64,000 bases of DNA from contig NZ_CP015772.1 in NCBI RefSeq assembly GCF_001654455.1, forward strand, positions 1,178,001 through 1,242,000, given 5' to 3'. Positions 27,602-52,457 of this stretch are shown in pieces. The stretch comes from Niabella ginsenosidivorans. Its GTDB lineage: Bacteria; Bacteroidota; Bacteroidia; Chitinophagales; Chitinophagaceae. Each line of letters starts with the position of its first letter. Positions within the stretch are counted from its first letter, which is position 1. Position numbers and translations under genes: made by a program. Under the pieces are notes generated by a model. The model saw only the letters and a list, made by a program, of their open reading frames with translations, was not told the DNA's origin and ran no database searches.

Positions 27602-27620
27602 TTAGTTCTGAGAAATTTAA

Positions 27621-27628
27621 TAACTTTG
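27621..27628 (+). promoter_or_regulatory. -7 box TAACTTTG upstream of map
   Basis: Exact TAnnTTTG match. The hairpin at 27631-27654 begins two nt downstream, so the map transcript would start in or at the stem. Confidence 0.5.
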
Positions 27629-27630
27629 CA

Positions 27631-27659
27631 GTCCCGCAACGTGAGTTGCGGGACTTTTT
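27631..27659 (+). terminator. Strong hairpin with T-run between secY and map
   Basis: GTCCCGCAAC-GTGA-GTTGCGGGAC is a perfect 10-bp stem followed by TTTTT. It is an excellent intrinsic terminator for secY. Because a -7 box lies directly in front, it could instead, or also, be a 5'-end stem-loop of the map mRNA. Confidence 0.75.
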
Positions 27660-27669
27660 AATGAACAGT

Positions 27670-28482: not shown

Positions 28483-28584
28483 AAAATAAATCTTACTTTC
28501 GGTTTGCAATGGTTTTATACCCCGGTTTGCCTTTAAAAGCACCGGGTGTTAGTGCTTGTGAACAGGTCTGTTACTAATTAAATA

Positions 28585-28614
28585 TATTAGTCATATTTTT
28601 TTACCTGACTAATA
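28585..28614. promoter_or_regulatory. Inverted repeat TATTAGTCA-N12-TGACTAATA upstream of the hybrid kinase
   Basis: A perfect 9-bp inverted repeat with a 12-nt T-rich spacer, 26 nt before the kinase ATG. Candidate operator, or weak map terminator. Confidence 0.45.
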
Positions 28615-28640
28615 GGATTTATACTGTAACTTCAATTATT

Positions 28641-31301
28641 ATGGCCAGCCCTTTTTTAAGAAAAGTTTCTGAGAGAAATACGATTATTATTTTTTTGGGC
28701 TTAAGTATGATCATACTTGTGGGGCTGGGTATTTATGCCAATACTTACACCTTCCGGTACAAACAGTCTATGAAGAGCACTACAGAAAAAGGAATTTTGA
28801 TCGGTAAGGCTGAGCAGATCCTTTTTGAGGTACAGGAGCTGCAAAACAATTTGCGCGGTTACCTGGTTACTTCCGATCCTAGTTATCTTAATTCCTTTAA
28901 AGTAGCTGAGCGAATGGTACGGCTAAACCTGCTGCAGATAAAGCCGCTTGCTTTGTCCCAGGATCAGATGGGGCAGTTTACGGAGATTAGTTCCCTGGTA
29001 GAACAGGAAATAAGCCTTGCAAAGAATATCATTGCCATCCAGGCAGACACAACATCGGCAGCAAAGGCCAATGTACTGTCGGCTAATAAAGACGAGCATT
29101 ACCTGTCTGCCAATATTAAGAGCAAACTGTTAGCGCTTATTAGCGATCAAAGAGCCAAACAGAACATCGATCTGGCTCTGGAAAAAAGAAATTCAAATTT
29201 TGATAAGGTCGTTTTTGTAATAACGCTAAGCATTTTAGTGTCTGTCACCATTTTATTGCTGTTGCTGTTCTATATTTTAAAAACCTACAAGCGCCTTACA
29301 TCTACCGAGAAGCTCTTGCTGCAATCGCAGTTGCGGTTAGAGAATATCCTGGATATGCTTCCTATCGGCATTTTCATTGTAAATGCGTTAAACAGGGAAT
29401 ACCATGCCAACCACAAAGCAACTGAACTGCTGGACAGCGGGCTGGCTGCCGATGGTTATTTAGCAGAAGAAGTTGAACATACAACTGAAAAGGACCGTTT
29501 GGGGAAAGATCTGATGGAAACGCTGCTTATATCGAAAGCATTGAACGGGGAGCATCATATTGGTATCAACCGCCTTATTCTAAAAAAAGATAATAGCGAG
29601 CTGCCTTTAAGGGTAAGTGCAACACCTTTGTATAACGATAATAACCAGATAGAATATGCCATTTCCGTATTTGATGATATTACCAGTATTAAAAATGTTG
29701 AAAATGAGTTGATAGAGGCAAAGAAGCTGGTTGAGCAATCGCTCCGGTTAAAGGAATCTTTTCTTACAAACATGAGCCATGAAATAAGAACGCCCATGAA
29801 CGCGATCCTTGGCTTTACAGAATTATTAGCCAGGAAGGACCTTGGGCCACAACAAAATGAATACGTAAGAACCATCCAGTCGTCAAGCGATAACCTGCTC
29901 CGGCTTTTAAATGATATCCTGGATTTTTCAAAGCTGGAAGCGGATATGCTTGTATTTGAAGAGCAGCCCATTTCTATTAATGACATTGTTGTATCTATCT
30001 GTGATCTTCTGATGCCAAAAGCTGTCAGCAAAGGAATCTCTTTAAGTTACCTTTGCGACCCCTCGATTCCAAAAGTGGTTACAGGCGATTCTGTAAGGCT
30101 GAACCAGGTAATTACCAACATTGTTGGTAATGCAATAAAGTTTACAGACCAGGGCAGTGTGAGTATCCTTGTAAAATTCCTGAAAGCGGATCAGGACAGG
30201 ACCTTTATTGAATTTACGGTTAAAGATACCGGCATAGGAATTGCTGCCGACAAAATTGCGTCTGTTTTCAACAGGTTTGAACAGGCTGATACGGAAACTT
30301 CAAGGCATTATGGAGGAACAGGACTGGGGCTAAGCATTGCCAAGCATATTATTGAATCCCAAAAAGGAACTATAAACGTAGCCAGTCAACCGGGGGTAGG
30401 AACCACCTTTACATTTGTCATTCCTTTCAAGTTCTTTAATGAAACAGATGGTAAGATTGATAAAGTAGAAGAGCGCCTGCCGATTGACGAGCATTTCATG
30501 CATTCTGTGAAGGTTTTGCTGGTTGAAGACAATTTATTTAACCGTAAATTAATGCAGGGCATTTTTAAAGAATATTATCTTACGATTGATATGGCTGAGA
30601 ACGGGAAAAGCGCGCTGGAGCGATTGCTTTCCGTTGACTATGATGTGATCCTTATGGACATTGAAATGCCTGAAATGAACGGTTATGAAACATCCAGAAT
30701 TATAAGGAATGAATTAAAGCTGAATACGCCTATTATTGCGCTGACCGCTCACGCCATGGCCGGGGAGCGCGAAAAATGCCTGCAGGCGGGCATGAACGAT
30801 TATCTTACGAAACCTGTAAACGTTAACCAGCTGTTTGAAAAGATCTACAGCATCATGCGCTTCGGGGAAACGGACCCCGCTGCTAATGAAAAGAACAGGA
30901 TGCCGGAACAAAAAGAGGCGCCGGCAACTGAAGGAGGCACACCCGGTTTCAATAATGCCGTAGACCTCAGCTATCTCAGGGAAATATCAAGCGGGAACAA
31001 AGAGTTTGAAAAAGAAATGATTGAACTATTGCTTGCTGAAATTCCTGAACAGATTGAAAGCCTGACCACTGCCGTTGCCGCAGAGGATTTCCAGGAGATT
31101 AAGATATATGCTCACAAGCTTAAATCACTGGTGCCGATAGTAGGAGCACCGGATACAGCTCCTTTTTTCAGCGACCTGGAAGATAAAGCGGTTAAAAAAG
31201 TATTGGATAAAGAGGACACCGCCCTTTTTTACAGGATCATGACCCGTTTAAACACCTGCATCAACCAGCTAAAGCAGATGCTGGAAAATGAATATGCCTG
31301 A
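28641..31301 (+). CDS. Hybrid sensor histidine kinase/response regulator (BarA-like)
   Basis: An 886-residue membrane kinase. TM1 is near residues 14-34, then a periplasmic region with CHASE3 features (LFEVQELQNNLRGYLVT), TM2 near 190-212, a PAS-like domain, HisKA with His380 (NMSHEIRTPMNAILGF), HATPase with NIVGNAIKFTD, DTGIGI and GGTGLGLSIAKHI, a receiver with Asp673 (VILMDIEMPEMNG) and Lys in YLTKPVN, and an HPt domain with His near 823 (YAHKLKS). The whole phosphorelay is in one chain. A partner regulator is not adjacent; the stand-alone receiver at 45827 is one possibility but unproven. The signal is unknown. Confidence 0.92.
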   Translation: MASPFLRKVSERNTIIIFLGLSMIILVGLGIYANTYTFRYKQSMKSTTEKGILIGKAEQILFEVQELQNNLRGYLVTSDPSYLNSFKVAERMVRLNLLQIKPLALSQDQMGQFTEISSLVEQEISLAKNIIAIQADTTSAAKANVLSANKDEHYLSANIKSKLLALISDQRAKQNIDLALEKRNSNFDKVVFVITLSILVSVTILLLLLFYILKTYKRLTSTEKLLLQSQLRLENILDMLPIGIFIVNALNREYHANHKATELLDSGLAADGYLAEEVEHTTEKDRLGKDLMETLLISKALNGEHHIGINRLILKKDNSELPLRVSATPLYNDNNQIEYAISVFDDITSIKNVENELIEAKKLVEQSLRLKESFLTNMSHEIRTPMNAILGFTELLARKDLGPQQNEYVRTIQSSSDNLLRLLNDILDFSKLEADMLVFEEQPISINDIVVSICDLLMPKAVSKGISLSYLCDPSIPKVVTGDSVRLNQVITNIVGNAIKFTDQGSVSILVKFLKADQDRTFIEFTVKDTGIGIAADKIASVFNRFEQADTETSRHYGGTGLGLSIAKHIIESQKGTINVASQPGVGTTFTFVIPFKFFNETDGKIDKVEERLPIDEHFMHSVKVLLVEDNLFNRKLMQGIFKEYYLTIDMAENGKSALERLLSVDYDVILMDIEMPEMNGYETSRIIRNELKLNTPIIALTAHAMAGEREKCLQAGMNDYLTKPVNVNQLFEKIYSIMRFGETDPAANEKNRMPEQKEAPATEGGTPGFNNAVDLSYLREISSGNKEFEKEMIELLLAEIPEQIESLTTAVAAEDFQEIKIYAHKLKSLVPIVGAPDTAPFFSDLEDKAVKKVLDKEDTALFYRIMTRLNTCINQLKQMLENEYA

Positions 31302-31663: not shown

Positions 31664-32836
31664 ATGAGCTCACTTAAAAACATAGCTAAAAAGATCATAA
31701 AAAAAATATGGGGGAAAACGTCTGTCAGCCATACCTACTGGAACTTCAGAGGGTTTTCTTTATTAACCGCCGGAGAAACAAAGCAGCTCCTTGAGCCTTA
31801 TTGTATAAAAGTTGTACCCAAATCATCTGTTGATTTACCGGAGATCACAGACGAAAACGACCCCCGGAATGTAATCTATAAGGCAAATAAATTTACCTCG
31901 GAAGAAGTTTATGTATGGCAGCATGAATTGAAAAACGGCTTTATTTCAAAACATGGTTCTATTGTAATAGATCATAAGGTGCTTTGTACAGATTGGGACC
32001 ACCGGGGGTTTGAACATCAGTTTTGGAAAAGGGATAAACGCCCCTCTAAATTCACCAAAACAGTCATCCCCTTATTAAGCCATCACCAGGATATGAATAG
32101 CCCGTCGGTGCTTACGGGGTATTATGATTTTGTATTGATGGTGGCCGCAAAGCTAAGCAGGATCAAAGATACTCTTAAGGAGGAAGACATCCGCGATATT
32201 GTTATTACATACCACTCGTTTGGAGGGCATTATGAAAAACAATATCTGGAACTATTAGGTTTTAATCCGGATAACTACATTGACAGCCGCACGTATAAAC
32301 TTTCGGCAGAAAGAGTGATTTTCGGGAATTGTGGTACCTGGAAACCGAATGTAAATGAAATCCTTTCGCTGAAAAGAAATATTGAAAGCCGGCTGAATAT
32401 CTCAGATATGACACCGTCTGCAGGCAACAGGGTATATATCAGCAGAAAGGGCAGGCGGGAGATTGAAAATGAAGGCGAATTGATTGAATTGCTGAAGAAG
32501 TTTAATTTTATGATAATTGAAGATAAAGGAAGAAGCGTTGAAGAGCAGATCGATATATACAGGAACGCTTCTTTTATCATCGGACCGCACGGTGCGTCAT
32601 TTGCCAATGTTATATGGTGTAAACCCGGCACGTATTTATATGAACTTTTTTCAAAAAGCTGGGCGCCCGACTACTTTCTTTACCTGGCCAAAATAAACGA
32701 TATGCAGTATGCAGCTTATCAGGATGACACTCATGAGGAGATCACCGATGACTTATTTGAAGCGTTATGCCAGGATATTTATGTGTCGATCCCAAAATTA
32801 AAAGTCAGTTTAGAAAACATATTGGGCAAACTTTGA
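31664..32836 (+). CDS. Glycosyltransferase family 61 protein
   Basis: A 390-residue protein with a basic N-terminus (LKNIAKKIIKKIWGK), no signal peptide and the GT61 (DUF563) signature FIIGPHGASFANVIWCKPGTYLYELF, preceded by RVYISRKGRR. Such enzymes transfer pentoses or hexoses in capsule or polysaccharide pathways. It stands alone but in the same direction as the NRPS-PKS and EPS genes. Donor and acceptor unknown. Confidence 0.85.
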   Translation: MSSLKNIAKKIIKKIWGKTSVSHTYWNFRGFSLLTAGETKQLLEPYCIKVVPKSSVDLPEITDENDPRNVIYKANKFTSEEVYVWQHELKNGFISKHGSIVIDHKVLCTDWDHRGFEHQFWKRDKRPSKFTKTVIPLLSHHQDMNSPSVLTGYYDFVLMVAAKLSRIKDTLKEEDIRDIVITYHSFGGHYEKQYLELLGFNPDNYIDSRTYKLSAERVIFGNCGTWKPNVNEILSLKRNIESRLNISDMTPSAGNRVYISRKGRREIENEGELIELLKKFNFMIIEDKGRSVEEQIDIYRNASFIIGPHGASFANVIWCKPGTYLYELFSKSWAPDYFLYLAKINDMQYAAYQDDTHEEITDDLFEALCQDIYVSIPKLKVSLENILGKL

Positions 32837-33555: not shown

Positions 33556-36500
33556 ATGAATGAGGAATCTGAATTTCCGGATGAGCGTAATGAGCAGGTT
33601 GGATTTCCCAATTGTACGCTTATTGATTTGCTGAATGCCCAGGTATGTAAAACACCCGACCGGATTGCTGTGGTTTGTGATGGGCAGCAACTTACGTATG
33701 CCCAGTTGGATGCCCGGGTGAACCGCCTGGCCTGTTATCTGCGTACCAGGAACATTCAAAATGAAGAACTGGTTGGTATCTGCATTGAGCGCAGCCTGGA
33801 AATGATTATCGGGATGCTGGCCATCGTAAAAGCCGGAGCCGCTTACGTGCCAATGGATCCGGACGCTCCCAGGGAGCGCATAGGATATATGCTGGAAGAT
33901 TGCCGGTCAAAAATAATTATCAGTACGTCCAACCTGAAAGGGCGCGTAGAAGGATTTGATGGTATCAGCCCCGTTTACCTGGATCTGCTTGAAGGTGAAC
34001 CTGAACAATACGATACGCAACCGCCTGTTACCGGAATCGATGCCGGCAGCCTTTTGTATGTGATCTATACATCCGGCAGCACCGGAAAGCCCAAAGGGGT
34101 GCTGATTGAGCACCGGAACGTGGTACGGTTATTTTTTAATGATGCACCTTTGTTTGAATTTACGGAAAACGATGTTTGGACCATGTTCCATTCCTTCAAC
34201 TTTGATTTTTCAGTGTGGGAAATGTATGGTGCTTTATTGTTTGGGGGAAAGCTGGTTGTTGTAAAAAAGGAAGTAGCTAAGGATCCTTCTCTTTTTTATG
34301 AACTGATGAAGAAAGAGGGCGTAACCCTGTTAAATCAGACCCCTTCTGCTTTTAACGCCCTGCAGGAGGTGGTTTTGCGGAAAGAACCCCTGAAGAGCCT
34401 GCGTTATGTGATTTTTGGCGGAGAAGCTTTATACCCTGCCATTCTTAAAAGATGGTATGAGACTTACACCTGGTGCCACATTATTAACATGTATGGGATC
34501 ACTGAAACAACCGTGCATGTGACCTATAAAGAGATAACAGCAAAAGAGATTGCAGCCAATGTAAGTGATATTGGTACACCCATTCCGACCCTTTCCTGTC
34601 TTATCCTTGACGAGCAGTTGAATATTGTTCCCGAAAATGTGGTGGGAGAGTTGTGCGTAGGGGGCGCAGGCGTTGCAAGAGGCTACCTGAACCGCCCGGA
34701 ACTAACAGCAGAACGGTTTATTGAAAATCCTTATAAAAAAGGCAGGCGCCTGTACCGCTCGGGCGACCTGGCAAAGCGGTTACCAGACGGCAGCCTGGAA
34801 TATATAGGCAGGAGAGATAACCAGGTCAAAATAAGAGGCTATCGTATAGAACTGGGAGAAATTGAAAGCCGTCTGCAGGAAGTGGACGGCATAAAACAGG
34901 CTGTAGTGGTAGTAAAAGAGCGGCAGGAGGGGGGAAAATACCTGGTAGGCTATTTTACAAAAGGCGCTGGCGGAACCGAACCCGAGAGGGCATATATACG
35001 TAAACAGCTAAGCAGGGCATTGCCGGATTATATGATACCCGATTTTTTTGTGGAGCTGGATGTAATACCCCTTACAAGTAATGGCAAAGTAGATAAAAGA
35101 GCGCTTCCGGAGCCTGATGTAAGGGCTATGCAAAAGGGCCTCTATGTTGCGCCTGTAACAGAAACAGAGCATCAGCTGGTCAATGGCTGGCAAAAAGTAC
35201 TGGGTATTCCTAAAATAGGGGTAGAAGATAATTTTTTTGAGTTGGGAGGGAACTCTTTACTGGCTCAAAAGCTGGTAACAGTCTTAAAAGAGGAGTATCA
35301 TTTTGAAATCCCCATTACAAGGCTCTACCAGAGCCCTACAATAAGCGGGCTTCAGCAATTTTTAAAAGGCAACAAAGGTGTTTTGCGCACGCACCGGAAA
35401 AAGAACAGGAGCACAGGTGCAGATGCTGTTGCGGTGATTGGCATGGAATGTAATTTTCCCGGAGCCGGTTCGGTTGAAGCCTTTTGGAATAATCTGAAAG
35501 AAGGAAAGGAAACCATTACATTTTTTAAGCAGGAGGAACTGGATGCAGCTATTCCTGCAGCTATAAAAAACAATACGGATTATGTTGCGGCAAGAGGCAT
35601 TATTAATGAAGTGCCGTTTTTTGATGCCGAATTTTTCGGTATTAGTCCCCGGTTGGCAGAACTGATGGATCCCCAGCATCGCCTGTTTTTACAGGCATGC
35701 AGGAACCTGCTGGAAAAAACCGGGTACCTGCCGGGGAAAAGAGCATCAGTCACCGGAGTATTTGCAGGATGCAGCACCAATACTTATTTTAATAACAATG
35801 TAGTCTGGCACAAGGATAAAATAGCCCTTCAGGGCAGCATACCTGTAATTTCGGTTTCGGATAAAGATTATGTAAGCAGCCGTGTAAGTTATCAGTTAAA
35901 TCTTTCAGGTCCTGCTGTAAATGTGAACACAGCCTGCTCCACTTCACTGGTAGCCATTGTACAGGCCGTGGAGAGTTTAAGGGCAGGTCAGTGCGATACG
36001 GCTATAGCAGGCGGCGCGGCCATTACAGTGCCTGTAAGCAGCGGCCACCTGTATGAGGAAGGATCCATGCTAAGCGCAGACGGGCATTGCCGCCCCTTTG
36101 ACGCGGATGCAAAGGGAACTGTGTTCAGCGATGGTGTGGGTGCCGTATTGCTGAAGCGGCTTGATGATGCTGTTGAGGATGGAGATACGATCTATGCCGT
36201 TATAAAAGGTGTTGGGATCAACAATGACGGAGGCCATAAAGGAAGCTTTACAGCCCCCAGTGCTGAAGGCCAGGCTGCCGCCATTTCAATGGCTTATGCC
36301 GATGCGGAAATTGATCCGGGGAATGTATCCTATATTGAAACGCATGGAACAGCCACGCCGTTAGGAGACCCTATTGAAATAGAAGGGCTGAAGCTTGCTT
36401 TTGGTAAGCAGGAGCGGAGGCAGTTCTGTGCAATAGGCTCGGTTAAAAGCAATTTCGGGCATTTGACGCATGCTGCGGGTGTGGCAGGATTTATTAAAAC

Positions 36501-39500
36501 AGTGCTGTCCATATATTACCGGCAATTACCCCCTTCCATCAACTTTGATAAGCCCAATCCGCGGATTGATTTTGAATCGACTCCTTTTAGGGTAAACAAC
36601 ACATTAAAGGATTGGGCCAGTCAGGGAAAAAGGATCGCCGGGGTCAGTTCGTTTGGTGTTGGCGGTACAAATGCGCATATAGTGCTGGAAGAATTTGAAG
36701 GGAAACCGGTTATGGAAGCTTCTTCCGTAGGAGAGCTTCTGCCACAATTGATCTGCTGGTCTGCTCATAACAGGGAGAGCTGTACAGCTTATGCAGACCG
36801 GTTAAAAGAATTCCTGCAAATGCATCAGGACGTTTCCCTGCGGGATGTAGCCTATTCCCTGCAGGTTACACGGCAGGAGATGAGGGTGCGGAATTTTATA
36901 GTAGCCAAAGATGTAAAGGAGCTTATAGCCCGGTTAAATGAAAAGGAAGCCGTTGCGGCTGCGGCCCAACTGCTTAAAGAAAAAAAGGCCAACGTGGTAT
37001 TCCTGTTCCCGGGGCAGGGAAACCAGTATCCCAATATGGGGCAGGAGCTTTATAATACTGAAGCCGTTTACAGGGAAGCAGTGGATCAATGTGCTGTTCT
37101 ACTCCGGGAATATATGGGTGAGGACATCCGCAATATTATTTTCACCAATGATGACGGGGCTGCAGAAAAGCTGAAGAATACAAAATATGCGCAGCCTGCC
37201 ATCTTTACCACCTCTTACGCTCTTGCAAAGTTGTATATGAGCTGGGGCGTTACACCGGTTGCCTTTGCAGGGCACAGTGTTGGTGAATTTGTGGGGGCCC
37301 ATCTGGCAGGTGTCTTTTCGTTGCCGGATGTGCTGAGAATTGTAGCCGAACGGGGCCGTTTAATAAGTGAACTGGCTCCCGGCAGCATGCTTTCTGTGCG
37401 TGCATCACAGGAAAGGGTAAAAGAATTGCTGCCGCAGCAGCTTTCCATTGCTGCCCAGAATGCAACAGAGTTATGTGTTGTTTCCGGAGAATCAGCAGTC
37501 ATCAGCCAGTTTGCGCAGCAGCTTACGGAGGCCGGTATCATCAATAAGCCTTTAAAAACCAGTCATGCTTTTCACTCTTCCATGATGGACCCGGTGGTTC
37601 CGGTGCTGGAAGCAGTGGTAGCAACAACAACCATGAATGTGCCGCAGGTACCGGTTATGTCTACCGTAACGGCAGCATGGCTAAAAGACAGTGAAGCTAC
37701 CAGCGCGGCGTACTGGGCCAATCATGCAAGGGAAACGGTACGGTTTGGAAGCGCATTAAAGAACCTGCAACAGGACTTAAACCCCCTGTTCCTTGAAACC
37801 GGGCCGGGTACCTCGTCTACGATTTTTGCAAAGCAGAATGGAATCAGCGAAGGTGCTTTTGCCGCATTAAATACCAATTCCCAGCCAACCGGGGAAATCG
37901 TTGCTGCAAAAAATGCCCTGGGAAAATTGTGGCAGTACGGGGCAACAATAAACTGGGCCGGTATATATAAAGGCAAACGCCTTCATTTACTTCAAAATCT
38001 TCCTACTTATGCATACAACAAAAAACAGCTTTGGGTGGACCCACCTCCACCTGTGCAGCCTTCATTAGCACAGCCACCAGTTGTTCCTATGCAAAATACA
38101 ACAATGATCACTACATCAACAACACCTGAAATGAAACGGAAAGAAACGCTGTTAGAGAAATTAAAAGATATTATAGAATCAGCATCGGGGATCCCCGTTG
38201 CCGACGCCAACCCACAGAGCAACTTTGCCGAATTAGGTCTGGACTCTTTACTGCTGACTCAATTAACCTCCAGCCTGAAAAAGGAATTTGCAATTCCCGT
38301 AACTTTCCGGCAACTGAGCGAGGATTTTGACAGCCTTGACAAACTTGCTGCATTTTATGATGAACATTTACCGGCTCACCTGTTCAGGAGCACTGTAAGC
38401 GAGGCCCAACAGCCGGTTAACGCTGTAAACGGTACAACGCCTGCGCCGGCAGCGCCTGTGATGGCGGCACCTGGTGGTATGCAGCCGGTTGGAGCTGATA
38501 TGATGAGCCTCATCACGCTTCAGTTGCAACTGCTGACCCAGCAGGTAGCAATGATGCAAAACGGCAACGGTGCAGCTGCCCATATAGCAGCAACGCCCCC
38601 CGCGCCTCCTGTACAAAGCCCGGTTGCCACAACACCCGGTACAGGAACAGGAGATGAGCTTACTGCAGAGGAAAAAGCTGAATTAAAAAAGCCCTTTGGA
38701 GCCACTGCACGTATAGACAGAAGAGCTACAGCAATGACGGATCAGCAGCAACAATTTATTGCCGACTTTATAGCAGCTTATAATAAAAAAACTGCCGGAA
38801 GCAAAAAGTATACACAGGAGCACCGGGCAAAGATGGCGGACCCTAGGGTGGTTTCGGGCTTTAAGCCATATACGAAGGAAATGGTTTACTCCATTGTGGT
38901 AAAGAGGTCGAAAGGCTGTTATCTATGGGATATTGATGACAATAAATACATAGATGCCTTAAATGGTTTTGGTTCTAATTTCCTGGGCTACCAGCCGGAT
39001 TATGTAAAAGAAGCCATCCTGAAACAGGTAGAAGAGGGCTATGAAATAGGACCCCAGCATGTTTTGGCCGGGGAGGTTTCTGATCTTATCTGTGAATTGA
39101 CCGGCATGGAACGGGCTGCTTTGTGCAATACGGGATCCGAGGCTGTTTTAGGGGCGATGCGCATTGCACGTACCGTTACCGGAAGGGATACAATTGTTGC
39201 ATTTACCGGTTCGTACCATGGCATTATGGATGAGGTATTGGTACGGGGCAGCAAAAAGCTGAAGACCTATCCTGCAGCATCCGGAATACTGGCCGATAAT
39301 GTGCAGCATATGCTGATCCTTGAATACGGTACAGAAGCTACCTTAAATATTATTAAGGAAAAAGCCGGTGAGATTGCTGCTGTTCTGGTAGAACCGGTAC
39401 AAAGCCGCCGCCCGGAATTTATACCGGTAGAGTTTCTAAAAGACCTGAGAAAGCTGACAGCAGCCAATGATATTGCGCTTATTTTTGATGAAGTGATCAC

Positions 39501-40254
39501 CGGTTTCCGCAGCCATTTAGGTGGGGTACAGGCCTTGTTTGGGATCCGGGCTGATATTGCTACCTACGGAAAAGTGGCAGGGGGCGGAATCTCCATCGGG
39601 ATTATTGCCGGGAGCAAAAAATATATGGATGCCCTGGATGGAGGCTTCTGGCAATATGGCGATGCTTCGATACCTGAAGTGGGGGTGACTTATTTTGCCG
39701 GAACGTTTGTGCGCCACCCGCTGGCTTTGGCCACAACACTGGCCACCTTAAAATACCTGAAGGCTCAGGGCTCTTCCTTACAGGAGTCATTGAATGAAAG
39801 GACCGCCCTGCTGGCAAAGCGGTTAAATACTATTGCAGAAAAATATCGTGTACCAATCTATGTGGTGCATTTTGCCTCATTATGGAAAGTGAAATTCAAA
39901 GAAGAATATGCGTATTACGAGCTTCTTTTTGCGCTGATGCGGATGCGGAATATTCATATTTGGGACCTGTTCCCCTGCTTTTTAACAACAGCGCATACCG
40001 GGGAAGATATAGAGGCTATTTGCCAGGCATTTGAAGAAAGTATTGCTGAATTGTGCAATGCCGGTTTCATACCCCAGGCCATAGCACCGGCAGGTAATGG
40101 ACAGCATGCACGCACAGGCATTCTGGACAACAGTCATCCGCCGGTCCCGGGCGCAAGATTGGGAAAAGACAGGAGCGGGAACCCCGCCTGGTTTGTTCCG
40201 GATGATACCAACCCCGGAAAATATTTACAAATATCATTGGATGGAAATAAATGA
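33556..40254 (+). CDS. Hybrid NRPS-PKS: A(Thr)-PCP-KS-AT(malonyl)-ACP-aminotransferase
   Basis: A 2232-residue megasynthase. The ATG at 33556 is chosen because an AGGGGG sequence lies 10 nt upstream. Order: adenylation domain (A3 YTSGSTGKPKG near 170, A7 YRSGDL, A10 NGKVDKR), PCP (FELGGNSLL near 560-572), ketosynthase (Cys in NTACSTS near 791, His in ETHGTATPLGD and KSNFGHLTHAAG), acyltransferase (GHSVGE near 1238, HAFH near 1336, a malonyl signature), ACP (LGLDSLLL near 1560), and a PLP class III aminotransferase (about 1775-2170; NTGSEA, FDEVITGF, Lys in YGKVAGGG). The code read by eye is D-F-W-N-I-G-M-V-H (Thr). No condensation or ketoreductase domain. It should load Thr, add malonyl and transaminate the beta-keto. 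An ATGA overlap leads to the next gene. It needs a phosphopantetheinyl transferase encoded elsewhere. Confidence 0.93.
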   Translation: MNEESEFPDERNEQVGFPNCTLIDLLNAQVCKTPDRIAVVCDGQQLTYAQLDARVNRLACYLRTRNIQNEELVGICIERSLEMIIGMLAIVKAGAAYVPMDPDAPRERIGYMLEDCRSKIIISTSNLKGRVEGFDGISPVYLDLLEGEPEQYDTQPPVTGIDAGSLLYVIYTSGSTGKPKGVLIEHRNVVRLFFNDAPLFEFTENDVWTMFHSFNFDFSVWEMYGALLFGGKLVVVKKEVAKDPSLFYELMKKEGVTLLNQTPSAFNALQEVVLRKEPLKSLRYVIFGGEALYPAILKRWYETYTWCHIINMYGITETTVHVTYKEITAKEIAANVSDIGTPIPTLSCLILDEQLNIVPENVVGELCVGGAGVARGYLNRPELTAERFIENPYKKGRRLYRSGDLAKRLPDGSLEYIGRRDNQVKIRGYRIELGEIESRLQEVDGIKQAVVVVKERQEGGKYLVGYFTKGAGGTEPERAYIRKQLSRALPDYMIPDFFVELDVIPLTSNGKVDKRALPEPDVRAMQKGLYVAPVTETEHQLVNGWQKVLGIPKIGVEDNFFELGGNSLLAQKLVTVLKEEYHFEIPITRLYQSPTISGLQQFLKGNKGVLRTHRKKNRSTGADAVAVIGMECNFPGAGSVEAFWNNLKEGKETITFFKQEELDAAIPAAIKNNTDYVAARGIINEVPFFDAEFFGISPRLAELMDPQHRLFLQACRNLLEKTGYLPGKRASVTGVFAGCSTNTYFNNNVVWHKDKIALQGSIPVISVSDKDYVSSRVSYQLNLSGPAVNVNTACSTSLVAIVQAVESLRAGQCDTAIAGGAAITVPVSSGHLYEEGSMLSADGHCRPFDADAKGTVFSDGVGAVLLKRLDDAVEDGDTIYAVIKGVGINNDGGHKGSFTAPSAEGQAAAISMAYADAEIDPGNVSYIETHGTATPLGDPIEIEGLKLAFGKQERRQFCAIGSVKSNFGHLTHAAGVAGFIKTVLSIYYRQLPPSINFDKPNPRIDFESTPFRVNNTLKDWASQGKRIAGVSSFGVGGTNAHIVLEEFEGKPVMEASSVGELLPQLICWSAHNRESCTAYADRLKEFLQMHQDVSLRDVAYSLQVTRQEMRVRNFIVAKDVKELIARLNEKEAVAAAAQLLKEKKANVVFLFPGQGNQYPNMGQELYNTEAVYREAVDQCAVLLREYMGEDIRNIIFTNDDGAAEKLKNTKYAQPAIFTTSYALAKLYMSWGVTPVAFAGHSVGEFVGAHLAGVFSLPDVLRIVAERGRLISELAPGSMLSVRASQERVKELLPQQLSIAAQNATELCVVSGESAVISQFAQQLTEAGIINKPLKTSHAFHSSMMDPVVPVLEAVVATTTMNVPQVPVMSTVTAAWLKDSEATSAAYWANHARETVRFGSALKNLQQDLNPLFLETGPGTSSTIFAKQNGISEGAFAALNTNSQPTGEIVAAKNALGKLWQYGATINWAGIYKGKRLHLLQNLPTYAYNKKQLWVDPPPPVQPSLAQPPVVPMQNTTMITTSTTPEMKRKETLLEKLKDIIESASGIPVADANPQSNFAELGLDSLLLTQLTSSLKKEFAIPVTFRQLSEDFDSLDKLAAFYDEHLPAHLFRSTVSEAQQPVNAVNGTTPAPAAPVMAAPGGMQPVGADMMSLITLQLQLLTQQVAMMQNGNGAAAHIAATPPAPPVQSPVATTPGTGTGDELTAEEKAELKKPFGATARIDRRATAMTDQQQQFIADFIAAYNKKTAGSKKYTQEHRAKMADPRVVSGFKPYTKEMVYSIVVKRSKGCYLWDIDDNKYIDALNGFGSNFLGYQPDYVKEAILKQVEEGYEIGPQHVLAGEVSDLICELTGMERAALCNTGSEAVLGAMRIARTVTGRDTIVAFTGSYHGIMDEVLVRGSKKLKTYPAASGILADNVQHMLILEYGTEATLNIIKEKAGEIAAVLVEPVQSRRPEFIPVEFLKDLRKLTAANDIALIFDEVITGFRSHLGGVQALFGIRADIATYGKVAGGGISIGIIAGSKKYMDALDGGFWQYGDASIPEVGVTYFAGTFVRHPLALATTLATLKYLKAQGSSLQESLNERTALLAKRLNTIAEKYRVPIYVVHFASLWKVKFKEEYAYYELLFALMRMRNIHIWDLFPCFLTTAHTGEDIEAICQAFEESIAELCNAGFIPQAIAPAGNGQHARTGILDNSHPPVPGARLGKDRSGNPAWFVPDDTNPGKYLQISLDGNK

Positions 40255-43200
40255 TCGGTATAGAAGTGAATACAGAGCCCTTAGTTGATTTTGACCCCTT
40301 TGCCGGAAATGCGATCGAAAAAGTAGTACCAACTACTGAATCACAAAAGGAAATTTTTGCATCCTGCATACTGGGAGGAACCGAAGCGAACCTTGCTTAT
40401 AATGAATCCCTGTCGCTGGAATTTACCGGCAATGTACAGGGAAAAATAATGAATGAATGCCTGGATGAACTGATCCGGCGGCATGAGTCACTGCGGGCTT
40501 CTTTCAGCAATGACGGATCAAAAATGATGATCTATGAATCGCAACCGGTCCCGCTGCATCAGGAAGATCTTAGCGCGCAGGAACCATGTGCGCAACAGGC
40601 CTTTTTACAAATGTACCACCAGCAGGACGCTGCAACCGCATTTGATCTTTTAAATGGCCCGCTGATCCGTTTTGCGCTGTTTGCGTTATCCCGCAACAGG
40701 CACCTGCTTACGATCAGCGCACATCATATTGTTTGCGACGGGTGGTCTTTTGGTATTTTGCTGGAAGATTTAAGCAGGCTGTACAATGCCAGGATTTCAG
40801 GGGAGCCCTTATCCACCCGGCTGATGCAATTCAGTGATTATGCCATTCATTCCGCCACATTCCGGGAATCGCCGGAATACAAGGCAACAGTAGCTTACTG
40901 GAAACGGGAATATGAAGGCAATATACCGGTGTTTGAAATACCTCCGGACTATCCGCGTCCACCCCTAAGAACCTATAAAAGCCGGAGAGATGATTTTGTA
41001 CTTCCTGCTGCAACTGCAGCGGCTATAAAGAAGGCAGGAGCAAAGTACGGGAGCAGTTTTGTAAACACCCTGATGGCGGCTTTTGAAATATTATTATATA
41101 AGTATACCGGGCACCGGGAAATCGTGATCGGCTTACCCACCGCCGGACAGGCCGCCACAGAGATGTATGATCTGATAGGGCATTGCGTTAATCTGCTGCC
41201 TTTAAGGAGCCAACCGGACCCGGCCCTGAGTTTTGCTGAATACCTGAAGCAACGGAAGTCCAAAACGCTCCGGGATTATGAACATCAGCAATTTACCTTC
41301 GGAACATTTTTAAAGGAGCTGAAAATACCGCGCGATCCGTCCCGCATGCCACTGGTCCCAGTGTCTTTTAATATTGACATGGGAATGGATATGCAGGTGT
41401 CCTTTAAAGATCTGGATTATCAATTGATCCATAATAAACGGGCAGCAGAAACCTTTGAATTGTTTTTAAATATTGCAGACGGAGAAGAGGGGTATGTATT
41501 TCAATGGTCATATAATGCACAGTTGTATAAGCCGTCCACTATAAAGGGCCTGATGGATAAATACTGCTACCTGCTTTCGCAGATCGTGGATAACGCAGAG
41601 CAAAAGATCGGCAACCTGCGGCTGGAAGATGAAAAAGAACTAACCGCTTACTGGCAAAACTGGAATAACCGGGTTAAGGCAATACCGGAACCCGCAACAA
41701 TAATAGAAAAGATCAACCGTACCTGTTTAGAGCATCCTGATCGAACAGCCCTGTATTATGGAGGGCAATCACTAAGCTACAGGGAAATTTATGAGCGGTC
41801 CAATCAGATGGCGCATTACCTGATCGCATCCGGAATGCTGCCGGGTGCTGTGGTAGGTATAGCCATGGAAAGAGGAATAGATCTGATCATCTCCATCCTG
41901 GGCGTGCTTAAGGCAGGCGGGGTCTTTCTGCCACTGGATCCGCAATATGCCCGGGAGCGTATTGAATACATGGTTGGCAATGCCGGGGCGCAGCTGTTGC
42001 TGACCACACCGCTGTTTTCAGGGAAGCTGCAAACAGAAGCCCGGGAGATCTGTGTGCAGGATATCAGCAAGGAGCTGTCAGGTTGCCCGGTTACCCTGCC
42101 GGAAGTGACCGTTACAGCAGATTCACTGGTTTATATTTTATATACTTCAGGCTCTACCGGCAGGCCAAAAGGAGTAATGATCGCCAACAGGTCATTGATC
42201 AATTATATCAGTTGGGCTGTTGATTACTACCTGAAAGGCGCAGCGGCCGTATTCCCTTTATATACTTCCATCTCTTTTGACCTTACCATCACTTCGATTT
42301 TTTCACCACTGGTATCGGGCAGCCTGTTCAAGATATATGAAGAGGAGGAGCCGGCATCCCTGCTGGAAAAGATCTTTACAGATCAGGAAGTGAATGTGAT
42401 CAAGCTAACACCTTCACATCTGCGGTTAGTAAAGGATAGCGCACTTATCCGGAAAAGCCTTCCCGGGCAGCATCTAAGGCTGATCGTTGGCGGAGAGGAC
42501 CTGGAAACCGCTTTGGCAAAAGAGGTATATGACCTTTGCAAAGGGAAGGTGGAGATCTATAATGAGTATGGCCCTACGGAGGCCACGGTGGGATGTATGA
42601 TCCATGAATATACGCCCGCGGAGCAGCGGCCTTCAGTGCCGATAGGGGTGCCCATCTCAAATGCCCGCATCTATTTGCTGGATAACACGTTACAGTTGGT
42701 GCCAAAGGGTATTAACGGCGAGATTTATATTGGGGGTGATTGCGTGGCCCTGGGCTATTACAGGAATGCGGAACTGACAAAAGAGCGTTTTTTAGAAGAT
42801 CCGTTTGTGCCGGGAGGAAGAATGTATAAAACAGGCGATAATGCGGTAATGCAGGAAGAGGATGTGCTGTTGTTTAAAGGACGTATAGATGACCAGGTAA
42901 AGCTGAGAGGGTACCGGATAGAGCCGGGAGAGATCGATTATCATCTTTCAGGGCTGGCAGGTATAAAAAATGCCGTAACCCTAGTAAGGGAGGATAGCCC
43001 GGGTAAGGGATACCTGGCATCTTATGTAGTATTGCAAGAGCCGGAAGAAGCACCGGAGCTGTTAAAGAAAAAATGGAGGGAAGCGTTGCGCAGCAAGCTG
43101 CCGGACTATATGGTGCCCGGCGTGTTTGTGATTTTAGAGAAGCTGCCGCTTACAGGTAACGGGAAAATTGATAAGCGGGCACTACCGGCACCTGTGTTTG

Positions 43201-44261
43201 ATGCAAAGCCCGGTAAGAAGCTGAGCAACCGGCCGCTTTCAGCACTGGAAAGCCGGATAAAACAGATCTGGGAAGAAGAGCTGGGCATACAGCAACTGTC
43301 TCTTTCAGATGACTTTTTTGAGCTGGGCGGACATTCGCTCACCGCCATTAAGATCATGACGCGGATAAAGGACGAAACAGGGGTGAACCTTCCCATTTCA
43401 ACGCTTTTTGAACACTCAACCCTGGCGGCTGTTATCGGCCTGTTGCAGGAGAACGAGATCGAAATAGGGAAAAAAGTGCTGGTACCTATAAAAACAACGG
43501 GTTCGCTGCCCCCCATTTACTTAATTCATGGCGGCGCGTTAAATATTCTTTTGTATAAGCAACTGGCGCCGTTTTTAAATGAGGATCAGCCTCTATATGG
43601 TATCCAGGCATTAGGGCTGGACGGCGACCTTTCCTGCCTGGACAGCATAGAAGAGATTACGGCACGCTACCTGACTGAGGTACTGGCCCAAAATCCTGAC
43701 GGGCCTTATATCATCATTGGCTATTCCTTTGGAGGTCTTGTGGCTTATGAAATGGCGCGTCAGTTGTTAGCAATAGGAAAAACAATCCGGCTGCTGGGTA
43801 TTATGGATACCAACGTAAGTGGTTTTAATGCTCCAAACGGAAAAAAGAGCAGGTTATTAATGCATGCAAAGCGGCAGATTAAGAAAGCCCTGTTTATAGG
43901 TGGCAACCTGTTCCGGTATCCGAAAGATGTAATCGCCTACCAGTGGCTGATTTTTAATAAGAAGTTTAATAAGGATTTCCGGGAGGAGCCGGAAGAACAG
44001 GTCTATGACTATGATAGTAAAGTATTGGAAGCCTATGAAAGGGCCTATAATAACTATAAGATAGCTCCGCTGAATGTCGTTATTCATTTGTTCCGTGTAA
44101 AAGAACGTATTTATTTTGTAGATGATCCGCTGTATCTTGGATGGAAAAGATATGCCTCCGGTGGGGTAGTGGTACATGACGTGGCAGGAGATCATAAGAC
44201 ATTTTTGCTGCCGCCTAATAATAAAACGCTGATGAACATTGTACAGAAAAGTATAAAATAA
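40251..44261 (+). CDS. NRPS: C-A(Asn-like)-PCP-TE termination module
   Basis: A 1336-residue NRPS beginning inside the upstream stop (ATGA). Condensation domain, residues about 20-460, with HHIVCDG near 157. Adenylation domain about 470-960 with LYTSGSTGRPKG near 630-641; the code read by eye is D-L-T-K-I-G-E-V-G, one position from the published Asn code DLTKLGEVG. PCP with FELGGHSLTA near 1023-1032. Type I thioesterase from about 1080, with GYSFGG near 1156 (catalytic Ser) and GDHKTFL near 1313 (His). The C domain should join the upstream diamino acyl chain to Asn and the TE should release it by hydrolysis or cyclisation. No MbtH-like protein or epimerase is in the window. Confidence 0.92.
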   Translation: MIGIEVNTEPLVDFDPFAGNAIEKVVPTTESQKEIFASCILGGTEANLAYNESLSLEFTGNVQGKIMNECLDELIRRHESLRASFSNDGSKMMIYESQPVPLHQEDLSAQEPCAQQAFLQMYHQQDAATAFDLLNGPLIRFALFALSRNRHLLTISAHHIVCDGWSFGILLEDLSRLYNARISGEPLSTRLMQFSDYAIHSATFRESPEYKATVAYWKREYEGNIPVFEIPPDYPRPPLRTYKSRRDDFVLPAATAAAIKKAGAKYGSSFVNTLMAAFEILLYKYTGHREIVIGLPTAGQAATEMYDLIGHCVNLLPLRSQPDPALSFAEYLKQRKSKTLRDYEHQQFTFGTFLKELKIPRDPSRMPLVPVSFNIDMGMDMQVSFKDLDYQLIHNKRAAETFELFLNIADGEEGYVFQWSYNAQLYKPSTIKGLMDKYCYLLSQIVDNAEQKIGNLRLEDEKELTAYWQNWNNRVKAIPEPATIIEKINRTCLEHPDRTALYYGGQSLSYREIYERSNQMAHYLIASGMLPGAVVGIAMERGIDLIISILGVLKAGGVFLPLDPQYARERIEYMVGNAGAQLLLTTPLFSGKLQTEAREICVQDISKELSGCPVTLPEVTVTADSLVYILYTSGSTGRPKGVMIANRSLINYISWAVDYYLKGAAAVFPLYTSISFDLTITSIFSPLVSGSLFKIYEEEEPASLLEKIFTDQEVNVIKLTPSHLRLVKDSALIRKSLPGQHLRLIVGGEDLETALAKEVYDLCKGKVEIYNEYGPTEATVGCMIHEYTPAEQRPSVPIGVPISNARIYLLDNTLQLVPKGINGEIYIGGDCVALGYYRNAELTKERFLEDPFVPGGRMYKTGDNAVMQEEDVLLFKGRIDDQVKLRGYRIEPGEIDYHLSGLAGIKNAVTLVREDSPGKGYLASYVVLQEPEEAPELLKKKWREALRSKLPDYMVPGVFVILEKLPLTGNGKIDKRALPAPVFDAKPGKKLSNRPLSALESRIKQIWEEELGIQQLSLSDDFFELGGHSLTAIKIMTRIKDETGVNLPISTLFEHSTLAAVIGLLQENEIEIGKKVLVPIKTTGSLPPIYLIHGGALNILLYKQLAPFLNEDQPLYGIQALGLDGDLSCLDSIEEITARYLTEVLAQNPDGPYIIIGYSFGGLVAYEMARQLLAIGKTIRLLGIMDTNVSGFNAPNGKKSRLLMHAKRQIKKALFIGGNLFRYPKDVIAYQWLIFNKKFNKDFREEPEEQVYDYDSKVLEAYERAYNNYKIAPLNVVIHLFRVKERIYFVDDPLYLGWKRYASGGVVVHDVAGDHKTFLLPPNNKTLMNIVQKSIK

Positions 44262-44288: not shown

Positions 44289-45611
44289 ATGAAAATAGCA
44301 GTAGTTGGAACCGGTTATGTTGGGTTGGTTACGGGTACCTGTTTTGCCGAAACAGGCAATCATGTTACCTGTGTTGATATTGACAGGAATAAGATAGAGG
44401 CGTTGCAGAAAGGCATTACGCCCATTTATGAGCCGGGTCTGGAAGTGCTGCTGGCCAGGAACATAAAAGAAGAGCGTATTGCTTTTACTGATAATTTAAA
44501 AGAGGCGGTTGAAGAAGCCGTCGTGATCTTCCTGGCATTGCCAACGCCATCAGATCAGGATGGGTCTGCAGACCTTAAATATGTGCTCCAGGTAGCAGAG
44601 CAGCTGGGGGATCTGATCACCTCTTATAAGGTTGTTGTTAATAAGAGCACGGTACCGGTGGGCACCAGCGAAAAAGTAGCAGCAGTGCTTTCAAAAAAAA
44701 TAGCACCGGAGTTATTTGATGTGGTTTCCAATCCTGAATTTTTAAGGGAAGGGGTAGCTGTAGAAGACTTTCTGAAGCCGGAAAGGGTGGTGGTGGGCAC
44801 CCGGTCAGAAAAGGCCACAAAGATTATGGCGGATCTGTATAACCCTTTCGTACGTCAGGGCAATCCTATTTATTTTATGGATCCGCGCAGTGCGGAAATG
44901 ACCAAGTATGCTGCCAATTCCTTCCTTGCAATGAAAATTTCATTTATGAACGAGATCGCCAATTTATGTGAGCGCACAGGTGCCAATGTAGACTGGGTAC
45001 GGATGGGAATCGGAAGTGATCACCGGATAGGCAAGCGCTTTCTTTTCCCGGGTATTGGTTATGGCGGCAGCTGCTTTCCCAAAGATGTTTTGGCGCTGAA
45101 CCTTACCGCCAGGGAGCATGAATACGATTTTCAGCTTCTGCAATCTGTTTTGACAGTAAATAAACACCAGAAAAAAGTCATCGTTCAAAAGATAAAACGG
45201 CATTTTAAGGATGCGCTTCAGGGAAAGCGGTTCGCAATATGGGGGCTGGCATTTAAACCGGAAACTGATGACATCAGGGATGCCCCTTCCCTGGAGATTA
45301 TTGAAGCATTGCTGAATGAAGGAGCCACCCTCAACGTTTATGACCCTGTGGCAATGGAAAATGTTCGAGGCAGGTTTGGTAACAGGATCACCTATTCTGC
45401 CAATCAGTACGAAGCACTGGATGGGGCAGACGCATTGCTGATCTTAACGGAATGGAGCGAGTTCAGAAACCCTGACTTTGATAAAATGAAAGATCTTTTA
45501 AAAACGCATACTATATTTGATGGCAGGAATGTATATGCTCTTGATAAAATGGAAGAATTGAATTTTCATTATGAAAGTATCGGCAGGGCAGTAATTAATA
45601 ATAAAGCCTGA
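44289..45611 (+). CDS. ugd: UDP-glucose 6-dehydrogenase
   Basis: A 440-residue enzyme oxidising UDP-glucose to UDP-glucuronate. The NAD-binding motif is VVGTGYVGLVTGTCFAE; the catalytic Cys is in GIGYGGSCFPKDV; the C-terminal domain has AFKPETDDIRDAPS. It starts 27 nt after the NRPS stop, in the same direction, so it may share a transcript. It supplies uronic acid to the EPS pathway that follows. Substrate could be another UDP-sugar. A hairpin (CCTGATC/GATCAGG) follows the stop. Confidence 0.95.
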   Translation: MKIAVVGTGYVGLVTGTCFAETGNHVTCVDIDRNKIEALQKGITPIYEPGLEVLLARNIKEERIAFTDNLKEAVEEAVVIFLALPTPSDQDGSADLKYVLQVAEQLGDLITSYKVVVNKSTVPVGTSEKVAAVLSKKIAPELFDVVSNPEFLREGVAVEDFLKPERVVVGTRSEKATKIMADLYNPFVRQGNPIYFMDPRSAEMTKYAANSFLAMKISFMNEIANLCERTGANVDWVRMGIGSDHRIGKRFLFPGIGYGGSCFPKDVLALNLTAREHEYDFQLLQSVLTVNKHQKKVIVQKIKRHFKDALQGKRFAIWGLAFKPETDDIRDAPSLEIIEALLNEGATLNVYDPVAMENVRGRFGNRITYSANQYEALDGADALLILTEWSEFRNPDFDKMKDLLKTHTIFDGRNVYALDKMEELNFHYESIGRAVINNKA

Positions 45612-45826: not shown

Positions 45827-46213
45827 ATGAACTCTAAGCATCTACTAATTGTTGACGATGAACCTGCAATTCTGAAATTGCTGCAATTTATCTTATCAAA
45901 AGACTACACCGTTACGCTTAAAAGCAACGGTTTGGAAGCAGTCCTCTGGTTGGAAGAAGGCAATAAGCCTGATTTAATTATACTTGACATCAATATGCCT
46001 TATTTCAACGGGCAGGATTTCTTTAAGTCTTTAAAGGTAAGCGGGTTGTTCCAGGGAATACCTGTAATCATCCTCACCGGTCATACAGATGTTGACCGTC
46101 TTAAAGCCGAGCTGGAATTCCCCGTGAATACTATCATCTCAAAACCCTTTAACCCAACAATCCTTCAAAATGCAGTCAGATCTCTCCTTACGCCAAAACC
46201 TGAAGTATACTAA
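45827..46213 (+). CDS. Stand-alone response regulator receiver domain
   Basis: A 128-residue CheY-like protein: acidic pocket in LIVDDEPAIL, phosphoacceptor Asp in LIILDINMPYFNG, switch Thr in VIILTGH and Lys in IISKPFNP. It has no output domain. Its 3' end overlaps the start of the sugar-transferase gene by 44 nt, so translation of the two is probably coupled. It may control the enzyme's activity by protein contact rather than transcription. The kinase partner is not adjacent. Confidence 0.92.
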   Translation: MNSKHLLIVDDEPAILKLLQFILSKDYTVTLKSNGLEAVLWLEEGNKPDLIILDINMPYFNGQDFFKSLKVSGLFQGIPVIILTGHTDVDRLKAELEFPVNTIISKPFNPTILQNAVRSLLTPKPEVY

Positions 46214-47302: not shown

Positions 47303-47995
47303 ATGAGGATACGCTATTTCTTCTTTCTGATGACCTGTTTTGTAAGCATAACTGCCCTGGCTCAGGAATCGATCATTGGTGATATTGATAATGATCTGCT
47401 CGCAAAATATATTGCCCTTGCGAAGCAGAACTTTCCGAGAGTAAAGGCGTTTCATGCAAGAGAAGACCGTGCAAAATATATGGCTAATGCTGCTTCTATG
47501 GGATGGTTTGATATTATTAATGTTGGATATTACTACTATCCCAACAGTTCTTCAAAAGGAGTGGGAGGAAATGTGAGCCCCGGCGGGCAAATTGTTACAA
47601 ACGGATTTATGGTAGGCGTGAGCGCCAATATAGGTGCTTTGCTGTCTAGACCATCTACTGTTAAAGCGGCAAAGGCTGAGGTAAAATCCGCAAAAGCCGA
47701 AACGGAGGAGTATGATATAACCCTGGCCAGCGATGTAAGAGCGAAATATTATGATTATCTTTCCAGTAAAAAGCAACTGGCAATCCGAAATCTGGCTGCT
47801 CAAAGCCTGAAGGGGATTCAGGCAGATGCCCAGCAAAAATATGAGCGGGGGGAGATTGCTATTGATGCCTATACCACTGCAAAGAACTCTGCTACTGAAG
47901 CAGATGCCCAGGCATTAACAGCAGAAGTTACTTACCTCAAAGCTAAGGATGCTCTGGAAGGAGTGATTGGAGCAAAACTCGAATCTATAAAATAA
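47303..47995 (+). CDS. Short TolC-like periplasmic coiled-coil protein
   Basis: A 230-residue protein with a signal peptide (RIRYFFFLMTCFVSITALAQ). The body resembles one half of a TolC/OEP monomer: a beta-hairpin segment (FMVGVSANIGALLSRP) and long helices (VKAAKAEVKSAKAETEEYDITLASDV, GIQADAQQKYERGEIAIDAY, AKNSATEADAQALTAEVTYLKAKDALEGV). Full TolC proteins are about twice as long. It could form an oligomeric channel with the Wzc-like protein or act as an adaptor. Confidence 0.75.
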   Translation: MRIRYFFFLMTCFVSITALAQESIIGDIDNDLLAKYIALAKQNFPRVKAFHAREDRAKYMANAASMGWFDIINVGYYYYPNSSSKGVGGNVSPGGQIVTNGFMVGVSANIGALLSRPSTVKAAKAEVKSAKAETEEYDITLASDVRAKYYDYLSSKKQLAIRNLAAQSLKGIQADAQQKYERGEIAIDAYTTAKNSATEADAQALTAEVTYLKAKDALEGVIGAKLESIK

Positions 47996-51707: not shown

Positions 51708-51830
51708 ATGCCAGTTGCTTTTTTTGCAGTGCCCGGGATAATATCTTTGCTTTGGGGCATATACATGGGATTGATCTTTTATAAAGAGGTGAAGCGTCCC
51801 CGTTCCCGTTGGCAATCGAACAGAAGTTAA
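51708..51830 (+). CDS. Small membrane protein, 40 aa
   Basis: A 40-codon ORF fitting the gap between the polymerase and the acyltransferase. It starts MPVAFFAVPGIISLLWGIYM, one membrane helix, and ends with a basic tail (YKEVKRPRSRWQSNRS). The stop is five nt before the acyltransferase ATG at 51836, an operon-like spacing. It may be a small subunit of the polymerase or export complex. No homologue is recognised. Confidence 0.5.
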   Translation: MPVAFFAVPGIISLLWGIYMGLIFYKEVKRPRSRWQSNRS

Positions 51831-51835
51831 TTATT

Positions 51836-52453
51836 ATGGAATCGTTAAAAAAAAAGATCAAATCTGTTCCAGCGCTGAAAAAAACAGCGCAATGGTTGTT
51901 GAATGCTGAGCATGATCCTCGCCCAAGATGGTTAATCCGGGCGTTTGTTAATCCTTTTGTTCATAAAAAAGGCGGGGGTTCTATCGTCAGAAAATATTCA
52001 CGAATGGATCTTTTCCCTTTTAATAAGTTTTTTCTTGGGGAATGCGCTATTATAGAAGACTATGCAGTAATCAATAATGGAGTGGGAGATGTAGAAATCG
52101 GCAGTCACTCTATTATTGGGGTCGGTTGTGTTGTAATTGGCCCTATATCTGTAGGTAAACACGTCATGTTTGCCCAGCATGTAGTGGCATCCGGGCTCAA
52201 TCATGGTTATCAGGACATTCATCAACCCATCAGCCATCAGCAGGTGGAATGCAAAAGAATTATTGTGGAAGATGAAGTTTGGATAGGGGCGAACAGCGTA
52301 ATAACTGCAGGGGTTACTTTAGGAAAGCATTCAGTTGTGGGCGCAGGCAGCGTAGTAACGAAAGATGTGCCTCCATTTTCAATCGTGGCTGGGAATCCTG
52401 CCAGGGTTATTAAACAATATAATAACGTATCTAAAAACTGGGAAAGGGTTTAA
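51836..52453 (+). CDS. Left-handed beta-helix O-acetyltransferase (WcaF/NodL-like)
   Basis: 205 residues from the ATG at 51836; an upstream TTG start would overlap the small ORF. The centre has hexapeptide repeats (VEIGSHSIIGVGCVVIGPISVGKHV, VWIGANSVITAGVTLGKHSVVGAGSVVTKDV) and the GLNHGYQDIHQPI loop with the catalytic His. It likely acetylates or acylates a sugar of the EPS repeat unit using acyl-CoA. The neighbouring glycosyltransferases support an EPS role. Confidence 0.9.
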   Translation: MESLKKKIKSVPALKKTAQWLLNAEHDPRPRWLIRAFVNPFVHKKGGGSIVRKYSRMDLFPFNKFFLGECAIIEDYAVINNGVGDVEIGSHSIIGVGCVVIGPISVGKHVMFAQHVVASGLNHGYQDIHQPISHQQVECKRIIVEDEVWIGANSVITAGVTLGKHSVVGAGSVVTKDVPPFSIVAGNPARVIKQYNNVSKNWERV

Positions 52454-52457
52454 ACGT

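Follow-up and report, generated by a model that had tools for sequence, protein, structure and literature searches.

Aminotransferases (AMT) placed between polyketide synthase (PKS) and non-ribosomal peptide synthetase (NRPS) modules are described for the mycosubtilin and iturin synthases, and a protein of the layout A-CP-KS-AT-CP-PLP1 was catalogued in 2013 in Pedobacter heparinus (C6XWU5), with Nrp-Mal-Gly-Pk as its predicted product (both according to Milano et al., PMC3870968). Exopolysaccharide (EPS) operons of the Wzx/Wzy type occur in two other genera of the family to which Niabella ginsenosidivorans belongs (genomes G118 and G130), with the core order kinase, regulator, sugar transferase, OEP, Wzz/Wzc, Wzy and glycosyltransferases. 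Both elements are found together in a 64,000-nucleotide stretch of the N. ginsenosidivorans genome (NZ_CP015772.1, positions 1,178,001 to 1,242,000; the whole stretch is hereafter the window), where a two-protein line, A-PCP-KS-AT-ACP-AMT (protein 1) and C-A-PCP-TE (protein 2), sits between the hybrid sensor kinase and the response regulator and sugar transferase of an EPS operon (Table 1). We consider it an even call that this beta-aminating NRPS-PKS line was recruited into the operon and that its product serves the EPS locus.

The two frames are open and complete and their genes overlap by 4 bases; protein 1 may start at a TTG at 33502 or an ATG at 33556, its frame ending at 40254. Pfam matches follow the order AMP-binding (2e-96), PP-binding, ketoacyl-synt (6e-70), Acyl_transf_1 (4e-46), PP-binding and Aminotran_3 (5e-49) in protein 1, and Condensation (5e-86), AMP-binding (4e-75), PP-binding and Thioesterase (2e-22) in protein 2, which agrees with the domain order and gene overlap claimed in an earlier note made from the DNA letters alone; neither protein has a KR domain among its Pfam matches, as that note had also said. 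All 16 catalytic motifs sought, in the forms we take them to have, were found by exact match: the Cys/His/His of the KS and the Asp and pyridoxal phosphate (PLP) lysine of the AMT (the two active sites that the note had proposed to check), GHSVGE of the AT together with the HAFH that had been read as malonyl-type, HHxxxDG of the C domain, the Ser/Asp/His of the TE, and all three carrier serines. Recomputed by script from motif-anchored positions, in what we take to be GrsA numbering, the pocket codes came out as the note had them, DFWNIGMVH in protein 1 and DLTKIGEVG in protein 2, i.e., a Thr-type and an Asn-type code in one line, if the assignment of codes to residues that we presume is right. 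The condensation-domain match in protein 2 is the only one in this single-contig genome of 5.63 Mb. This is a two-protein NRPS-PKS line with an intact-looking catalytic set.

Protein 1 is identical in layout to P. heparinus C6XWU5 and has an aminotransferase of the same class (Aminotran_3), but the specificity of C6XWU5 is given as 'Nrp' and its predicted product includes Gly; the architecture as such is already known. The word exopolysaccharide does not occur in the main text of PMC3870968, and a record-level literature search brought up no account of an NRPS-PKS line forming part of an EPS operon. For the product of an A-PCP-KS-AT-ACP-AMT architecture the record-level search found no publication. 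The AMT itself aligns over its whole domain with that of mycosubtilin synthase (6kfm, E 2e-118), and its lysine motif TYGKVAGGG is in register with TYGKIIGGG of 6kfm; this alignment and the presence of the AMT motifs rule out a broken aminotransferase, and the homology supports the mycosubtilin-like amination logic proposed in the note. As in MycA, whose AMT is a homologous member of the GSA aminotransferase class, it stands after KS-AT-ACP and ahead of a C domain, here on the second protein. The MycA starter is a fatty acid, whereas this line loads an amino acid via A-PCP, and a beta,gamma-diamino acid would be expected.

From domain function, the A domain of protein 1 would adenylate and load an amino acid (Thr by its code), the KS would extend it once with malonate supplied by the HAFH-type AT, and the AMT, given that no ketoreductase is present, would replace the beta-ketone by an amine to give 3,4-diamino-5-hydroxyhexanoyl-ACP. 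Protein 2 would then join this unit to Asn and the TE would release the product, as C10H20N4O5 if hydrolysed to the linear form (computed mass 276.1434) or as C10H18N4O4 if cyclised (258.1328). Substrates, in vivo amination and release mode are predictions, as is the product, most likely 3,4-diamino-5-hydroxyhexanoyl-Asn made as part of an EPS programme. The chemistry could also be different, with other residues activated, or with the gamma-amine closing a lactam (e.g., C6H12N2O2) before Asn is joined, so that no Thr-Mal-Asn product arises. Pocket codes are predictions, DLTKIGEVG was one position off the Asn code according to the note, and gamma-amino thioesters are able to cyclise; yet both codes recur in the genus and every catalytic motif sought is present, and we regard this departure as unlikely. 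Even without any decoration of a polymer, the line would be a compact means of making beta,gamma-diamino acids with two proteins, whose A domains are naturally exchanged.

From protein 1 through the Wzy gene, including the dehydrogenase, regulator, sugar transferase, exporter and Wzz/Wzc genes, all genes point the same way and no gap between them exceeds 215 bases, and a sugar transferase, Wzz/Wzc, Wzy, Wzx and glycosyltransferases stand together in the window, which makes the locus one of the Wzx/Wzy type. Patterns of what we presume to be the Bacteroidetes-type promoter consensus were no better than chance, sigma-70-like sites likewise, and transcription units were therefore judged by gene spacing alone. 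A phosphopantetheinyl transferase (PPTase) is not missing: the genome has three PF01648 matches, of which one lies just outside the window in a gene for 262 aa (49 bits; G000:C1:1245014-1245802), ca. 3.0 kb past its end; as this gene sits beyond the far side of the EPS genes, the latter lie between the line and the PPTase. The operons of G118 and G130, neither of which is among the family genomes that match protein 1, share the core order but run directly from kinase to regulator to sugar transferase without an intervening synthetase, which looks like the state without insertion. A signalling or regulatory product, adjusting EPS output by way of the neighbouring hybrid kinase and response regulator, would fit the fact that these two flank the line both here and in the genus genome G008; however, the same pair heads EPS operons that have no synthetase, and the G008 kinase is 67% identical although the G008 line differs (no starter A, no AMT, a Gly-type code), and such a role appears very improbable.

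Within the genus, protein 1 is matched in 9 of 17 genomes (1e-200) and the EPS sugar transferase in 8 (1e-80), all eight being among the nine, and 8 genomes have neither at these cut-offs. Line and marker share one neighbourhood in every one of the 8 genomes having both. The only genome with the line and without the marker is G016, where the match lies on a 4,610-base contig; ignoring shared ancestry, a perfect overlap by chance amounts to 1 in 12870 without G016, and the figure with G016 kept is 9 in 24310 (hand calculation). The position of the line inside an EPS gene cluster in this genus suggests a product that belongs to the slime coat rather than a free-standing antibiotic. A stand-alone secreted small metabolite (e.g., an inhibitor, chelator or antibiotic), with the EPS genes as neighbours through shared gain and loss of a genomic island, would accord less readily with this constant linkage and with the placement between kinase and regulator; even so, we hold it to be a substantial alternative, at somewhat less than an even chance.

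The lines of the genus vary considerably. Two lie side by side in G004, the second without AMT, and in this line as well as in those of G008 and G002 (loci L036, L040 and L041, respectively) protein 1 lacks the AMT and retains the C-terminal tail; in G008 the starter A domain is also absent from the protein 1 frame. In these AMT-less lines the beta-keto product would be left with no visible processing. A Thr-type code is seen in two A domains of G004 and an Asn-type code in G001, G002, G004 and G013. The second-module A-PCP of G004 (L037 1-3899) has the first-module A-PCP of the window as its closest match (56% identity), and this likeness, coupled with its Thr-type code, is a sign of A-domain exchange, which we consider likely. 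Five other EPS loci of the genus (L252, L254, L255, L256 and L258) have a protein with a motif like YDAIVIGSGISGG, presumably oxidoreductase-like, usually with a small partner; neither was seen in the window locus.

The pair is not an orphan architecture, as its relatives are common. At 1e-180, 38 of 394 genomes of the same family match protein 1 (P0001), and 20 of these were fetched, picked for matches reaching the AMT (G379 qualified but was left out; genus members and partial matches, e.g., G424, G444 and G364, were not added). In all 20, protein 1 has the same domain order and is followed by C-A-PCP-TE, with other pocket codes; nine carry an insert in the A domain of protein 2, and G392 has a second C-A-PCP. 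Starter codes are mainly of the DVQ... and D.TK... types (which we take to be Pro-like and Asp/Asn-like), with some others, and in the second A domain a DILQ.GMIW-type code, presumably for Gly, predominates. When named genomes were scanned using the AMT alignment as a profile, the same kind of pair proved widespread, Pedobacter, Spirosoma and Winogradskyella among its carriers; of no fewer than 80 loci matched, the best 40 (L046-L085) were read for architecture, 22 (L046-L066, L068) were used in counts, and L086-L125, at 36% identity or less, were left unread. Protein 1 is a single ORF in 16 of the 22, the A-PCP is separate in L057, L060, L063, L064 and L065, and L066 begins with a C domain. 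The Thr-type starter code was seen in the window line, G004 and Ideonella (L053). Judged by sequence, the line is one variant of a widespread Bacteroidota two-protein family, A-PCP-KS-AT-ACP-AMT / C-A(-insert)-PCP-TE, with which it shares the pair layout but whose members mostly have other starter and second codes and usually no adjacent EPS operon. Hence, while the enzyme reading of the earlier note (domains, codes, AT and AMT) holds, its picture of an unprecedented, stand-alone pathway does not: the family is widespread, the protein 1 layout had been catalogued, as said above, and the pair lies within an EPS operon in this genus. In five genomes of another genus, g111 (L176, L177, L178, L180 and L183), a Wzx-type flippase gene lies directly beside the synthetase pair and is possibly a dedicated exporter; no other EPS marker and no PPTase were flagged in the stretches read, and Pfam was used to check the flippase on L176.

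Links to polysaccharide genes recur beyond the genus, in Pedobacter, Spirosoma, Ideonella, Xylophilus and others, and most relatives examined are without them. In four Pedobacter genomes a similar EPS operon shares a contig with the line, at a distance of 29-38 kb (computed by hand), and in Spirosoma (L049) the synthetase frame begins 13 bases after a Wzz/Wzc-like gene, itself preceded by an OEP gene (19% identity to the window gene; its GNVR match is below the cut-off). Of the 22 named genomes, 4 (L049, L053, L060 and L063) have the sugar transferase PF02397 no more than 15 kb from the line (0.65 expected) and 8 have it no more than 40 kb away (1.4 expected; contigs were matched by length, and all other matches possibly closer than 40 kb by coordinates were checked and are on contigs of a different length); collapsed to 17 genera, the count is 5 versus 1.09 expected (P 0.003). 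Ten of the 20 family genomes, from 4 of 9 genera, have a PF13440 flippase at most 10 kb away (0.43 expected). All these counts use distance cut-offs set after looking at the data, come from related genomes and assume uniform placement. Separate linkages in Spirosoma, Ideonella, Xylophilus and LIN-94 and the recurrent flippase speak against a stand-alone metabolite; for it speak the many relatives outside EPS operons, often in a short cluster with a PPTase and/or flippase, and the AMT tree, in which line and EPS genes appear to part and meet often. On this tree (47 of 49 AMT rows; two detached aminotransferases from L155 were dropped, and fragments, e.g., G003, never entered) 9 changes of the EPS label are required, and well-supported branches force no fewer than 6 of them, so that a single origin of the linkage is not supported; the label is nonetheless more clustered than in shuffles (mean 12.9 changes; 2 of 500 as low).

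Besides the limits of these counts, several observations weigh against a product serving the EPS locus. No ligase or transferase that would attach it to a glycan was identified, and since the three AMT-free lines also lie among EPS genes, an EPS role of whatever kind can do without amination. The far flanks of G001, G002, G004, G008 and G012, as far as they were read, gave no PPTase. No EPS marker besides the flippase was flagged in 18 of the 20 family genomes (15-20 kb, or to the contig end; only G158 and G434 have any), though the 20 profiles used were built from at most seven sequences each and may miss unlike EPS genes. PF02397 is absent within 40 kb on the same contig in 14 of the 22 named genomes, some contigs being too short; Winogradskyella (L051) has cytochrome genes beside the line; and five genomes from other genera of the family possess a close Wzy and do not appear among those matching the line. 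The cytochrome neighbours, together with the 2 of 20 family genomes having markers, show that lying next to EPS genes is not a general trait of the family.

Single amino acids are known to occur on bacterial polysaccharides. If the product does serve the EPS locus, it would do so as a basic, amide-linked substituent of the polysaccharide or as a partner exported with it. For the former, the TE or another partner would transfer diamino-hydroxyhexanoyl-Asn to a sugar residue of the exopolysaccharide as it grows; this attachment is the weakest step and we regard it as doubtful. Should it occur, the line would offer a novel means of adjusting surface charge and could be exploited genetically to produce aminated polysaccharides. 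We tentatively postulate, against the balance of probability, a swappable slime "charge module", in which members of the genus change A domains, add a module or drop amination to alter their coat, and a solution of this kind, with the same reservation, might have arisen repeatedly in other groups.

Table 1 Synthetase and EPS genes in the window (positions in the 64,000-nucleotide stretch)
Feature	Position	Strand	Remarks
Assembly-line protein 1, A(DFWNIGMVH)-PCP-KS-AT-ACP-AMT	33556..40254	+	2232 aa; Pfam, pocket code, motifs
Assembly-line protein 2, C-A(DLTKIGEVG)-PCP-TE	40251..44261	+	1336 aa; Pfam, pocket code, motifs
AMT part with C-terminal tail	38770..40251	+	PLP lysine codon 39571-39573; best solved relative is the mycosubtilin synthase AMT
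Hybrid histidine kinase, CHASE3-PAS-HisKA-HATPase-receiver-Hpt	28641..31301	+	67% identical copy ahead of the line in G008
GT61-family glycosyltransferase	31664..32836	+	a copy immediately precedes the line in G004 (72% identical) and in G001 (76%)
UDP-glucose/GDP-mannose dehydrogenase, TuaD-like (below that model's cut-off)	44289..45611	+	27 bases after protein 2
Response regulator, head of EPS operon	45827..46213	+	
Polyprenyl-phosphate sugar transferase PF02397	46170..47276	+	EPS marker for co-occurrence
OEP/TolC-like outer-membrane export protein	47303..47995	+	
Wzz/Wzc-like chain-length protein with kinase-like part	48025..50235	+	
Wzy-type polymerase/ligase PF04932	50241..51683	+	
Hexapeptide-repeat transferase	51809..52453	+	
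GT2 glycosyltransferase	52365..53621	+	
GT4-type glycosyltransferase	53654..54862	+	
Wzx-type flippase PF13440/PF01943	60608..61945	-	

The region is located at a break in a ribosomal-protein operon, which ends after secY and map (window 26264-28641); the hybrid kinase starts 158 bases past map, and ribosomal protein S11 is found ca. 1 Mb away (G000:C1:215797). The SecY of the window is 67% identical to that of Chitinophaga, against 51-58% for six other named Bacteroidota-type genomes, which points to Chitinophagaceae as its family. Neither of two minus-strand proteins of the window (54880-56106 and 58864-60420) matches Pfam or NCBIfam at 0.001. The former is similar (ca. 25%) to a protein encoded next to two Pedobacter lines, and one copy of that protein has a match, under the cut-off, to a polysaccharide deacetylase family. 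Elsewhere in the same genome (L027 1477-4110; G000:C1:617232-619865) a protein consisting of one module, A-PCP-TE, and having a Gly-like code is encoded next to a GT14-like glycosyltransferase gene; the TE of this protein is 44% identical to that of protein 2.

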